Source: Allomuricauda sp. (GTDB taxonomy: Bacteria; Bacteroidota; Bacteroidia; Flavobacteriales; Flavobacteriaceae). From it: a stretch of DNA of 64,000 nt. The translations under genes and the position numbers were made by a program. The DNA is taken from the NCBI RefSeq assembly GCF_013911645.1, contig NZ_JACESV010000001.1, positions 806,001-870,000 on the forward strand, in the 5' to 3' direction. Below are positions 21,765 to 37,781 of the stretch, one piece after another (position 1 is the first letter of the stretch; every line of letters begins with the position of its first letter). The notes under the pieces are model-generated. The model was not told the origin of the DNA. It ran no database searches and saw only the letters and a list, made by a program, of their open reading frames with translations.

Positions 21765-21859
21765 AGTGTTGGGGTTTAGGGTTTGGGAGAGCAAGCAAAA
21801 AGGTTTGATGAAAACAACATAAAACCATTTTAATTGAACTTGAGCTTAGCTAGCCAAAG

Positions 21860-21926
21860 GGTTCTCGACTGCTCCTTCGACTGTCTGCCCGTGCGACTGG
21901 CGGGCGCTCAGGATGACAGCTCGAAC
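21860..21926. repeat. Nested palindromic intergenic repeat
   Basis: Minus strand: CTCGAGC..TGTCATCCTGAGCG[CCCGCCAGTCGCACGGGCAG]ACAGTCGAAGG..AGCAGTCGAGAACC. Confidence 0.6.
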
Positions 21927-21961
21927 TGACATCCGACATCCGACATCCGACATCCAAATTC
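21927..21961 (-). repeat. Solo heptanucleotide array abutting the histidine kinase stop codon
   Basis: TGACATC CGACATC CGACATC CGACATC CAAATTC (+ strand); last base is the first base of the stop codon complement cta. Confidence 0.8.
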
Positions 21962-23289
21962 TAAAAATCATCCTTATCCATAAGCTCCCTGATCTTGCGC
22001 TCTTCCCAGCGCTTGCCCCAAAGTGGGTTATAGCCGAAGGCTTCCATTCCATGCACAAGCACACCGAACCCCCAGCCGAATGTTGGAAAAAATGCCCAGA
22101 GAAAATCCGTTGTTCTAAAATTGAGCCACCACAAAAAGGGAATCACAATACAATAGGCCATAAGGTTGCCGTAAAAGTCCTTAATTGCCTTTACCCGTTC
22201 TTTGGCCTTTACGTACCGTTTTTCTTCGATATAGCTCTCTTGGGTCTCCAATATGGTATATTTTTGGGTGAGCATGGGCAGAGACACACTAAAATCCGTT
22301 TCTGTTTTTTTAACGACCATTTCGCGGTCGGTTAAAATACGGTAGCGTTGCTTTATATTCTGTAATCCGACCCCGCTGCTTTTTTTCACCACTTGTTTTT
22401 CTTGAAGGTTATTGCTCACGACCAACATGCCTTGTTGTTCAAAAACTTTGATGTGCAATGGCCTTGATGAAGTGACCACATTATGTTTTACGGCATTTTC
22501 CAGCAATAGTTGTAGGGACAGCGGCACAATTTTAGCTTCAGGTTGGGAACAGCTATCCGGAATATCGAAGATGATACTGTCCTCAAAACGCATCTTTAGA
22601 AGTCTTACGTAAGTTCTGGCGAACTTCAGTTCTTCATCCACGGTAACCAAGTCCTTATTTTTCTGCTCCAGCACATACCTATAAACTTTGGACAGTGATG
22701 TTGTAAAGTTTTGGGCCTGATGTGGGTCTTCATCTATCAAACTTGTTAAAACATTGAGGCTGTTGAACAAAAAATGGGGGTCCAACTGGTTTTTTAAAGC
22801 ATCGAAACGGGCAGATGCCGACCCTGCTATGATCTTCTGTTCTTTTACCTGCTTCTCTTTGTAATATTTATAGTAATAAGCAGCATAGAACAAAATGGCC
22901 ACTGCCATGGAAATCAAAAAAGAGCTCACATAATACTCCATGCGCTCTTCTGCCAAAAATTGATCTATTGATTTTTGATATACCAGCACCACCAGAACAA
23001 ATCTGGAAATACCAATTCCGATAATCGAGGCTATAACATTTCCCAGAAAACCATAGCCTATATATTTTTTCGTAAAAAGCTGTTTATCATACTTCCGCAT
23101 CAAAATGATAAAGGAAGCAGAGTTGAGCATATAAATAATCACGGAAAAAACCATACTCTCCCAAAACTCTGTCCAAAGCTCTTGAAAAGTAAGGTCCCAC
23201 CCCTTAACAAAAAAAATAATGAGCAAGACCATGTAAATGGCCACCCCCACTAAAAACGCCCTTACAAGTTCCCTTATTAAGAGTTTCAT
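21961..23289 (-). CDS. LytS-like sensor histidine kinase with C-terminal 2TM domain
   Basis: His_kinase motif LDPHFLFNSLNVLTSLI; ATPase SGVGLQNIKQRYRIL; C-terminal YVKAKERVKAIKDFYGNLMAY ... YNPLWGKRWEERKIRELMDKDDF. Confidence 0.93.
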   Translation of the reverse strand: MKLLIRELVRAFLVGVAIYMVLLIIFFVKGWDLTFQELWTEFWESMVFSVIIYMLNSASFIILMRKYDKQLFTKKYIGYGFLGNVIASIIGIGISRFVLVVLVYQKSIDQFLAEERMEYYVSSFLISMAVAILFYAAYYYKYYKEKQVKEQKIIAGSASARFDALKNQLDPHFLFNSLNVLTSLIDEDPHQAQNFTTSLSKVYRYVLEQKNKDLVTVDEELKFARTYVRLLKMRFEDSIIFDIPDSCSQPEAKIVPLSLQLLLENAVKHNVVTSSRPLHIKVFEQQGMLVVSNNLQEKQVVKKSSGVGLQNIKQRYRILTDREMVVKKTETDFSVSLPMLTQKYTILETQESYIEEKRYVKAKERVKAIKDFYGNLMAYCIVIPFLWWLNFRTTDFLWAFFPTFGWGFGVLVHGMEAFGYNPLWGKRWEERKIRELMDKDDF

Positions 23290-34163: not shown

Positions 34164-35720
34164 ATGCGTAACTCCTTACTCCTTCTGTTACTTTTTGCCA
34201 TTCTGATAAGTTGTGATACCAAAACAGAAAAAAAACTGCCTCGAATAGCCATTGCAGGACTGGGGATTGAATCCAGTACGTTTTCGCCCGCCCTTACGCA
34301 TGAAGAAGCATTCCATCCCAAAATTGGAGATTCCATATTTAACCGCTACTCTTTTATGGATACAGATTCTTCCTTGAGAAAACGAGCCGAATGGGTTCCC
34401 ACTTTAGTGGGAAAATCATTGCCCGGGGGAACCGTAACTCGAGAAGCTTACGAATCCTTGGTGGGCAAAACATTAAAAATGTTGGAAGAAAATAAGCCTT
34501 ACGATGGGCTTTTCTTTGACATTCATGGAGCCATGAGCGTTGTTGGACTAGATGACCCAGAAGGAGACCTCATCAAACGTATTCGAGAAGTTGTGGGAAC
34601 CGACGTATTGATTTCGACCTCCATGGATCTCCATGGCAATGTTTCCAAACGATTGGCACAACATTCCGATTTGATTACTTGTTACAGAATGGCTCCACAC
34701 GAAGATGCCACCGAATCGCGCAAAAGAGCCGTGAAAAACTTGGTGTCACGATTAGAAAACGGAAAAGGCAAACCCAAATACAAAGCTTGGGTTCCCATAC
34801 CGATTTTATTACCCGGCGAAAAAACAAGCACACGAGTAGAACCCGGAAAAAGTCTTTACGCCAAAGTGCCCGAAGTGGAGCAAAAAGAAGGCGTAATCGA
34901 TGCCGCTATCTGGATTGGCTACGCTTGGGCCGATGAACCCCGAAACCATGCCGTGGTCATGGTTACAGGAGATAATAAAGACCAAGTAACCGAAGGAGTT
35001 GAAAAATTGGCTAATAGTTTTTGGGATGTCCGCGAAGAATTTGAGTTCGTAGCCCCCACAAAATCCTACGAAGAAGCATTGGAACTTGCTTTGGCGAGTG
35101 ACAAAAAACCATTTATGTTGAGTGATATGGGCGACAACCCCACCGCTGGTGGCGCAGGTGATGTTACTTGGACATTGACGGAGCTTTTAAAAAGGGAGGA
35201 GTTTCATACAGTAGGTGGCAAATCCTTGATTTACGCCTCTATTCCCGGGCCTAAATTGGTGGAACAAGCTATGCAAGTTGGCGTTGGCGGAGAAGTCAGT
35301 GCTCCTGTTGGTGCCGATATTGACGATAGATATGCCCCACCCCTTATGCTAACGGGAGAAGTTACTGCCATAAAACATGGCGATGTTCATGCAGAAACCG
35401 AGGTTGTGGTACGAGTGGACAATGCCCATGTTATTGTGACCAAAAAGAGGAAACCCTACCACAGAAAATCTGACTTTACCAATTTGGGACTTGTTCCCAG
35501 TGAAACGGATATTATAGTAGTTAAAATTGGGTATTTGGTTCCAGAACTTTATAATATGCGAGGGGATTGGGTCATGGCCTTGACCCCAGGTGGCGTGGAC
35601 CAAGATTTGGAACGTTTGGGCCATAAAAGAATTATTAGACCCATGTTCCCATACGACCCCGACATGGAGCGCCCCGACCTTTCTGCCCGATTGATCAAGG
35701 CTTCGGATGAACTGGACTAA
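34164..35720 (+). CDS. M81 family metallopeptidase (MlrC-like) lipoprotein
   Basis: RIAIAGLGIESSTFSPALTHEEAF; GLFFDIHGAM; TSMDLHGNVS; DMGDNPTAGGAGD; lipobox LLFAILISCDT. Confidence 0.88.
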   Translation: MRNSLLLLLLFAILISCDTKTEKKLPRIAIAGLGIESSTFSPALTHEEAFHPKIGDSIFNRYSFMDTDSSLRKRAEWVPTLVGKSLPGGTVTREAYESLVGKTLKMLEENKPYDGLFFDIHGAMSVVGLDDPEGDLIKRIREVVGTDVLISTSMDLHGNVSKRLAQHSDLITCYRMAPHEDATESRKRAVKNLVSRLENGKGKPKYKAWVPIPILLPGEKTSTRVEPGKSLYAKVPEVEQKEGVIDAAIWIGYAWADEPRNHAVVMVTGDNKDQVTEGVEKLANSFWDVREEFEFVAPTKSYEEALELALASDKKPFMLSDMGDNPTAGGAGDVTWTLTELLKREEFHTVGGKSLIYASIPGPKLVEQAMQVGVGGEVSAPVGADIDDRYAPPLMLTGEVTAIKHGDVHAETEVVVRVDNAHVIVTKKRKPYHRKSDFTNLGLVPSETDIIVVKIGYLVPELYNMRGDWVMALTPGGVDQDLERLGHKRIIRPMFPYDPDMERPDLSARLIKASDELD

Positions 35721-36370
35721 ACAGTTACGGCTTGATTTAAATATTGCCGAAAGGGAAGCATTTCCTTGTAAACGGCAACGATTTTTTCTTTGAAATCAGG
35801 ATTCAGCACGTCTGCTTTTGTCAGTTTGTACTCCACCGCGAAGGTTTTGTTGCGCAACAATTCAATATGCGGATGGTCGTTGGAAAACCCTTTGGGGGAT
35901 GACACCAATTTCTCGTCCTCATATAAGCCGCCAAACATTTTTTTGAAGGATGGTTTGTCCAGAATCTGCTGCAATTCCTCACCATTATAATCAATGGCAT
36001 CTCGGATACTGCGAAGCGTTTTGGAGTCAGGTCGCCATCGACCGCCTGCCAACAAGCAATGTTTTAGTCCAATTTCAATATAAAAATCGGCGGAATTGGG
36101 CGCTTTGTCCAACCCTGCACCCAAATGGTCTTTGTAGATAGGTTTATTCGGATGGAACATTAAATTATTATTGATTCTGTTGATGCCCTTTTTGCCTGGA
36201 GTTGGGTAATAATCGTCATGGAGTTGTACCATGGTCAAATCCAAATCATCCAACCAAGCGATAAAATCGTTGCGAAGGGATTTGTACCATTTGCGGTTCG
36301 CATCCATCCATTCTTTGTTATTGTTCTTTTGAAGTTCTTCTAGAAAATGGAACAGGTCGTTGAAATTCAT
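35717..36370 (-). CDS. DUF2461 (TIGR02453) family protein
   Basis: LHFLEELQKNNNKEWMDANRKWYKSLRNDF; NRDIRF-like region NRINNNLMFHPNKPIYKDHLGAG. Confidence 0.88.
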   Translation of the reverse strand: MNFNDLFHFLEELQKNNNKEWMDANRKWYKSLRNDFIAWLDDLDLTMVQLHDDYYPTPGKKGINRINNNLMFHPNKPIYKDHLGAGLDKAPNSADFYIEIGLKHCLLAGGRWRPDSKTLRSIRDAIDYNGEELQQILDKPSFKKMFGGLYEDEKLVSSPKGFSNDHPHIELLRNKTFAVEYKLTKADVLNPDFKEKIVAVYKEMLPFRQYLNQAVTV

Positions 36371-36440
36371 GGATTGTTCGGTGTTGGATGTTTGATGCTC
36401 GGTGTTTGGTGTTCGGTGTTCGGTGTTCGGTGTTTGATGT
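36371..36440. repeat. Left heptanucleotide array of the four-helix-bundle cassette
   Basis: 10 in-phase heptads: GGATTGT TCGGTGT TGGATGT TTGATGC TCGGTGT TTGGTGT TCGGTGT TCGGTGT TCGGTGT TTGATGT. Confidence 0.9.
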
Positions 36441-36463
36441 TAAGGGTCTTTAATGATGTGAAG

Positions 36464-36826
36464 CTATATCTTGTTTCGAAAAGCTATAATCATGTTCATT
36501 AACTTGAAACAACAATCATATAATTTTTCAAATTCCTTATCGGAAATATACGCTCTATTACTAGCCTTATACAAACAAGTCACCACTTCTGCCAGTGAAC
36601 GTACAGAATAACCCAGAAACTTTCTCAACTCAGGCTTTGACTGAACAATGGAACCTTCAGAAATATTAAGGGCCACCGAATCTGCTGCTCGACAGATTTG
36701 GGATGATAAGTTATATGTTTCTTTTTTGGGAAAATCATTGGTAATCAAGTTTATTTGTTCTCCCAAATTCATGGCATCCTGCCATATATGTAGTCTTTCA
36801 AATTTAAACTTTGTTTTTCCAACCAT
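36464..36826 (-). CDS. Four helix bundle protein (23S rRNA IVS-protein family, PF05635-like)
   Basis: MVGKTKFKFERLHIWQDAMNLGEQINLITNDFPKKETYNLSSQICRAADSVALNISEGS; family signature LxxW..A..L and SxSxxxNIxEG-like; start trimmed from 36871. Confidence 0.9.
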   Translation of the reverse strand: MVGKTKFKFERLHIWQDAMNLGEQINLITNDFPKKETYNLSSQICRAADSVALNISEGSIVQSKPELRKFLGYSVRSLAEVVTCLYKASNRAYISDKEFEKLYDCCFKLMNMIIAFRNKI

Positions 36827-36843
36827 ATAACAATTGACATTCT

Positions 36844-36878
36844 GCATCAAGCACCTAACATCCGGCTTCAAGCAACTT
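36844..36878. repeat. Degenerate heptad array just upstream of the four-helix gene
   Basis: GCATCAA GCACCTA ACATCCG GCTTCAA GCAACTT. Confidence 0.65.
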
Positions 36879-36918
36879 AAAATCTATTATCAATACTTAC
36901 TTTTATTCTTTTGGAATT

Positions 36919-36981
36919 GAGCTTCCAAGCTCAGACTTCTGACTTCTGACTTCGGACATCCAACACCCAACACCCGACATC
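36919..36981. repeat. Right heptanucleotide array of the four-helix-bundle cassette
   Basis: GAGCTTC CAAGCTC AGACTTC TGACTTC TGACTTC GGACATC CAACACC CAACACC CGACATC; last base is the first base of the next gene's stop complement cta. Confidence 0.88.
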
Positions 36982-37781
36982 TAAAACCTATTATCCCCAT
37001 CCAACAAATCGCCGATACCGCCCAAAATGCTACCTTCTCCCTTGTCTTTTCCGCCACCTCTCGGTGCAGCGGCCCAAACTCGGCTGGCCAACCTACTGAA
37101 CGGCAAGGATTGAATATAAACGGTTCCCGGACCACGTAGCGTAGCAAAGAAAAGTCCTTCCCCGCCAAAAACAGTATTTTTAATGCCGCCCACAAACTCA
37201 ATATCATAATCCACAGTTTGGGAAAAACCAACAATACAGCCTGTATCCACTTTTAAGGTCTCTCCAGGTGCCAATGTTTTTTTCGCCATGGTTCCACCAG
37301 CGTGCACAAAGGCCATTCCGTCACCTTCCAGCTTTTGCATAATAAAGCCTTCGCCTCCAAAAAACCCACGGCCCAAGCGTTTGGAGAACTCAATGCCCAC
37401 GGAAACACCTTTAGCGGCACAAAGGAATGCATCCTTTTGGCAAATAAACTTGCCGCCTTTTTCGGAGAGATCTATGGGGACAATTTTACCTGGATAAGGC
37501 GAAGCAAAGCTCACAAGTTTTTTACCTTGACCAATGTTCAAGAAAGCGGTCATAAAAAGGCTCTCGCCCGTGAGCATTCGTTTACCTGCGGAGAACAATT
37601 TGCCCAATACCCCAGTATCTTGGTTGGAACCGTCCCCGAAGATGGTATCCATTTTAATATCGGTATCCATCATCATGAAACTGCCGGCTTCGGCAACAAC
37701 GGCTTCTTGTGGGTCCAGTTCTATTTCCACATATTGCATTTCTTCGCCGTAAATGTGGTAGTCTATTTCGTGTGCGTTCAT
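36981..37781 (-). CDS. TIGR00266 / AIM24 family protein
   Basis: [63 protein letters not shown]. Confidence 0.9.

Follow-up and report, generated by a model that had tools for sequence, protein, structure and literature searches.

Heptameric repeats behind a histidine kinase gene of Allomuricauda sp. and heptad-periodic arms around IVP/S23p genes of Bacteroidota

A tandem array of heptads directly behind the stop codon of a sensor histidine kinase gene was analysed in a 64,000-nt stretch of the Allomuricauda sp. genome (hereafter the window) and in related genomes. The array, which lies in the 3' untranslated part of the kinase gene, is probably a slipping VNTR; it has its heptad character in common with the arms of IVP/S23p cassettes and is not a remnant of such a cassette. 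The PF05635 (IVP/S23p) genes of Bacteroidota sit between operon genes and are enclosed by mutually complementary arms of period 7.

The array behind the kinase gene

The kinase gene and the gap behind it carry the following features:

21961..23289, minus strand: gene of a sensor histidine kinase with a C-terminal 2TM domain (PF06580 and PF13239), whose stop codon precedes the array
21927..21961, minus strand: heptad array TA[GAATTTG][GATGTCG]x3[GATGTCA], recognised from the sequence, by TRF and from the copy-number difference among relatives
21864..21926, minus strand: REP-like palindromes (GTCAGTTCGAG...GCAGTCGAGA, holding two more, one inside the other) joined to the final heptad, delimited in an alignment of four relatives
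21765..21790, minus strand: a second array, degenerate and rich in C (sense CCCAAACCCTAAACCCCAACACT), which adjoins the conserved block lying upstream of the next 2TM gene; it was seen in the sequence, and relatives have perfect period-7 arrays in the same position

The sequence and coordinates of the array given in the initial annotation were correct, and the heptads follow from the kinase stop TAG (21963-21961) on the minus strand. TRF delimited the repeat at 21928-21955 (period 7, 4.0 copies, 100% matches). The stop-touching unit, GAATTTG, is a poorer match to GRWGTY (5 of 6 positions), and therefore the clean array begins 6 nt past the kinase stop, in the near-stop position characteristic of heptameric SSRs; like these, it consists of a 7-nt tandem unit in non-coding DNA. 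Scans of the array revealed neither a terminator-like site nor an Rfam match, and RNA folding of the region was nothing unusual (z -0.34). A role as a back-up stop codon was considered and rejected, since no reading frame of a GATGTCG array contains a stop.

The array is far beyond chance. In the same genome (G000), the pattern (GRWGTYN)3 has 50 matches, while the same pattern read backwards has none. In the gaps behind the kinase and AIM24 genes of 30 relatives each, where genes were called with our own codon-usage caller, 39 arrays of period 7 were detected and 3 with any other period between 4 and 12; for 73 named kinase gaps of Flavobacteriaceae, the majority from Flagellimonas/Allomuricauda, the corresponding numbers were 23 and 1. 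No array at all was present in 32 of the 60 orthologous kinase and AIM24 gaps. A bulk autocorrelation of 300 kb showed no peak at period 7, the arrays being rare. They are also unevenly spread over the genome: the region G000:C2:1-300000 is free of GRWGTYN arrays and of period-7 arrays between genes, although there are about 17 array sites in the genome. Some intergenic stretches are composite (L039-L056, e.g., L045 5800-6400), with several families of short-word repeats in succession, namely GRWGTYN, GCAGTNN, octads of the AATAACYC type and CTTGANN, along with a repeated TTTTGACACTAATTTCACGAATCATCACGAA block.

The array differs in length between close relatives at the same place. The allele of G017 is two units (14 nt) shorter than that of G000, the kinase genes of the two differing at 27 of 1326 nt. 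Depending on the species, the unit directly behind the kinase is GATGTCG, GGTGTCG, GATGTCA or TCAGTTA, and the variants GATGTCG, GGTGTCG and GATGTCA are homogenised per species at this one site. Comparison of the alleles thus shows a slipping heptameric VNTR, in which units are gained, lost and homogenised. The kinase proteins of G000 and G017 are 100% identical and their AIM24 proteins 95% identical, while the values for G000 and G004 are 93% and 99%, respectively; this contrast suggests recombination between species.

The REP-like palindromes are nested, each in the centre of another, to different depths (L061, L062, L063): G012 has the outer one only, G004 has a second inside the outer, and G000 and G017 have a third inside the second. 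At the far edge of the gap, all 16 arrays found have a C-rich sense strand, and the unit differs from species to species (CCCTTGA, CCCTCAA, CCCTAAA, CACCCTT and others).

Placement and strand polarity of heptad arrays

The arrays are not random relative to stop codons: 11 of the 22 in the same genome lie within 25 nt of a stop on the sense strand, and none of the 22 within 25 nt of the gene on the far side. Random placement of each array in its own gap put a mean of 1.8 near an edge, and none of 20,000 trials reached 12. Among relatives, 25 of 48 scorable arrays are within 25 nt of an edge (22 of them at stops) versus 9.6 under the null model, in a set that is less independent, since the kinase and AIM24 loci appear in it repeatedly and orthologous gaps do not amount to independent observations.

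The initial annotation had proposed that the kinase array and the right array of the 36.4-37.0 kb cassette, at the stop of AIM24/TIGR00266, share one register relative to the stop codon. The latter array indeed reads TA[GATGTCG], and the common register is confined to these two window sites. It is not a general rule, as the 11 near-stop arrays of the genome start at -2, -2, -1, 5, 6, 7, 7, 9, 9, 11 and 25 nt relative to the stop and use 5 of the 7 possible phases.

A second heptad family, GGGTKRA, has the opposite orientation and points away from start codons. It prefers the start edge in 9 of 10 mixed gaps, versus 12 of 46 for GRWGTYN (Fisher p = 3e-4), the ratios of stop-edge to start-edge arrays being 1:9 and 34:12, respectively. 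Most such arrays of the genus, including that of the kinase, lie at the outer edge of protected sequence, with the G-richer strand reading away from the gene.

The reading of the array as a VNTR draws on the 14-nt difference between G000 and G017, the near-exclusive period of 7, the edge placement, the C-rich polarity of the far edge and the Xanthomonas parallel described below. Slippage would be the generator of the array, purifying selection would exclude arrays from genes and from the conserved blocks upstream of them, and transcription that continues past the end of the gene would give rise to the strand polarity. Slippage alone, however, explains neither the polarity nor why the period is 7 and not 6 or 8. 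Together with protection of the coding sequence it may account for most of the array, with the polarity possibly coming from exiting transcription and any function being putative.

The recurrence of arrays at the same gap edge with different units could reflect selection for function. One could propose that the array is a working element of the 3' UTR, such as a site of transcription termination or RNA-protein binding or an insulator that separates transcription units, with a sequence free to change provided that its period, position and strand composition are preserved. The constancy of place and strand polarity while units change, and the opposite edge preferences of GRWGTYN and GGGTKRA, are consistent with such a role, but the array-free state of more than half of the orthologous gaps, the ordinary fold and the lack of any terminator-like site or Rfam match make it rather unlikely.

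IVP/S23p cassettes and their relation to the kinase array

The second locus of interest in the window is a cassette with a four-helix-bundle gene:

36981..37781, minus strand: AIM24/TIGR00266 gene upstream of the IVP cassette
36933..36988, minus strand: heptad arm behind the AIM24/TIGR00266 stop, the 5' arm of the cassette, recognised by sequence and pairing
36464..36871, minus strand: IVP/S23p four-helix-bundle gene (PF05635, by family match), a relative of XCC0516 (PDB 2gsc)
36380..36442, plus strand: inverted heptad arm beside the DUF2461 start, the 3' arm of the cassette, complementary to the 5' arm (-37.5 kcal/mol)
35717..36370, minus strand: DUF2461 gene downstream of the IVP cassette

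To our knowledge, the S23p/IVP protein has no known function. The arms of the window cassette, which holds a PF05635 reading frame, are of the GRWGTYN type; against their pairing energy of -37.5 kcal/mol, shuffled sequences already reach -30.4, owing to the richness of the arms in GT and AC. When the surroundings of 38 IVP genes were searched for strict period-7 repeats, perfect arrays turned up at two loci only, besides one run of N, because the heptads there are degenerate. The periodicity is evident from sequence identity at a lag of 7, which amounts to 0.40 on the upstream side of IVP genes and 0.44 on the downstream side, with most other lags at about 0.28 and echoes at lags 14 and 21; in a phylum set of 30 genomes the lag-7 values are 0.38 and 0.40.

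Within the genus (n = 36), IVP arms pair with their own partner at a mean of -23.1 kcal/mol versus -12.5 kcal/mol with foreign partners (permutation p = 5e-5), and the corresponding energies for the 30 genomes of the phylum are -26.5 and -16.2 kcal/mol (p = 5e-5); such duplex energies express what could pair, not what pairs in the cell. For 200 control genes, own and foreign partners gave -13.87 and -13.85, and the lag-7 excess was absent. The IVP loci behind these results are the window cassette (36380-36988), L031-L038, L150-L179 and L341-L370.

The junction between fadB and fadA (L371-L400, fadA oriented, with the junction upstream of position ~1500) occurs in three states. It is empty in nine genomes (gap of 1-15 nt), ORF-less in ten genomes (40-85 nt, with several strong hairpins) and filled in another ten, where a gap of 424-529 nt holds an IVP gene between paired arms. 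The mean hairpin z over the eleven ORF-less gaps scored is -2.2, and that of G018 reaches -4.7 with a lag-7 identity of 0.62. The sequence of the IVP arms differs between lineages, and the pairing is kept. The fadB-fadA cassettes have the architecture of 23S rRNA intervening sequences (IVS), here in mRNA operons; no published account of it was found in a search that reached few subscription papers. In the genome of the window, at G000:C1:796776-798726, fadA has an IVP gene on either side.

As a speculative generalisation, of low probability, the IVP/S23p genes of Bacteroidota might be an mRNA-borne intervening-sequence family, in which a four-helix ORF occupies the loop of a heptad-periodic stem inserted just behind operon stop codons, with empty, ORF-less and ORF-bearing alleles, and solo arrays might arise from this process as unpaired products or mark its landing sites.

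The link between heptads and four-helix genes proposed in the initial annotation holds in a different form, in that IVP genes are bordered by degenerate period-7 arms. The suggestion that the kinase array is a footprint of a lost four-helix gene proved unsupported. Among the orthologous kinase gaps of the relatives examined, no PF05635 ORF and no intact cassette was detected; G022, in which heptad arrays are present and a PF05635 match is absent, is a genome of the kind expected to contradict the proposal. Kinase-gap arms pair no better with their own partners than with foreign ones (-8.1 vs -8.5 kcal/mol, n = 32, p = 0.77), those of G000 pair worse than shuffles (-9.9 vs -13.9), and AIM24 gaps without IVP gave a similar result (-15.0 vs -14.6, n = 23, p = 0.32). 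The number of arrays and that of IVP genes are weakly correlated over 37 genomes (rho 0.37, p = 0.02, uncorrected for kinship).

The array could still be imagined as the relic or a half-copy of some IVS-like element, one that formerly carried an IVP gene or was able to carry one, given the heptad-periodic arms of IVP cassettes, the ORF-less hairpin versions at the fadB-fadA junction and the GRWGTYN arms of the window's own cassette. Against this, IVP is absent from every kinase gap examined, own-partner pairing is lacking and arrays occur in G022 without PF05635; the relic reading is disfavoured and appears improbable. Solo arrays have no complementary partner arm, which the scar of an IVP element should have retained; the kinase array is therefore classed as a gene-edge heptameric VNTR that resembles the IVP cassettes in character without being a remnant of one. 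Least probable of all is that slippage multiplied the leading heptad (GATGTCA) of a REP-like palindrome once it had landed behind the stop: all four units of G012 equal the palindrome's leading ATGTCAG and the arrays of G000, G004 and G017 finish at one and the same array-palindrome joint, but most arrays have no such palindrome beside them and other palindrome copies have no array.

Comparison with known repeats and intervening sequences

Heptamers have been reported to be over-represented among bacterial SSRs. The GGGAATC repeats of Xanthomonas and GGGGA(C/T)T repeats of Nostoc are found on the coding strand within 0-50 nt after a stop, or on the non-coding strand just ahead of an ORF, and convergent heptamer pairs were described in Xanthomonas (PMC4692102). 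The arrays reported here share with them the period of 7, intergenic location, placement at edges, heterogeneous units and change of length between relatives, as well as, with Xanthomonas, convergent pairs. Unlike these G-tract, quadruplex-capable heptamers, GATGTCG has no run of three G and cannot form a quadruplex, and the units vary from gap to gap and from species to species. Xanthomonas campestris has convergent pairs of GGGAATC heptads as well as a PF05635 protein, XCC0516.

TAACTGA heptamers are known from Beggiatoaceae, Cyanobacteria and some Bacteroidetes, the latter also having mixed heptamer assemblages (PMC4679880). They too are intergenic with 7-nt indels between relatives, and G007 has their reverse complement, TCAGTTA, as the unit of its kinase gap; unlike the arrays described here, TAACTGA is one fixed word located mostly just upstream of start codons. 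The kinase array therefore belongs to a known kind, the intergenic heptameric SSR, and differs in its non-quadruplex, non-fixed unit.

In the 23S rRNA IVS of Coxiella and Leptospira, S23p lies in a loop formed by the pairing of complementary terminal sequences (PMC4990558). The IVP cassettes resemble them in having the same protein family in a loop that complementary arms close, and in occurring both with an ORF and without one, but are located between protein genes instead of interrupting a helix of 23S rRNA, and have arms of heptad periodicity. Unlike the IVS, the kinase array has no complementary partner.

Altogether, the edge-and-strand rule published for quadruplex-forming heptamers also holds for non-quadruplex heptamers with a species-variable unit, and thus cannot depend on a quadruplex or on one word. 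With IVP genes found in complementary heptad stems at operon junctions throughout the phylum, along with empty and ORF-less alleles at one site, it becomes testable whether S23p elements move and whether they are excised as RNA, a long-standing question.
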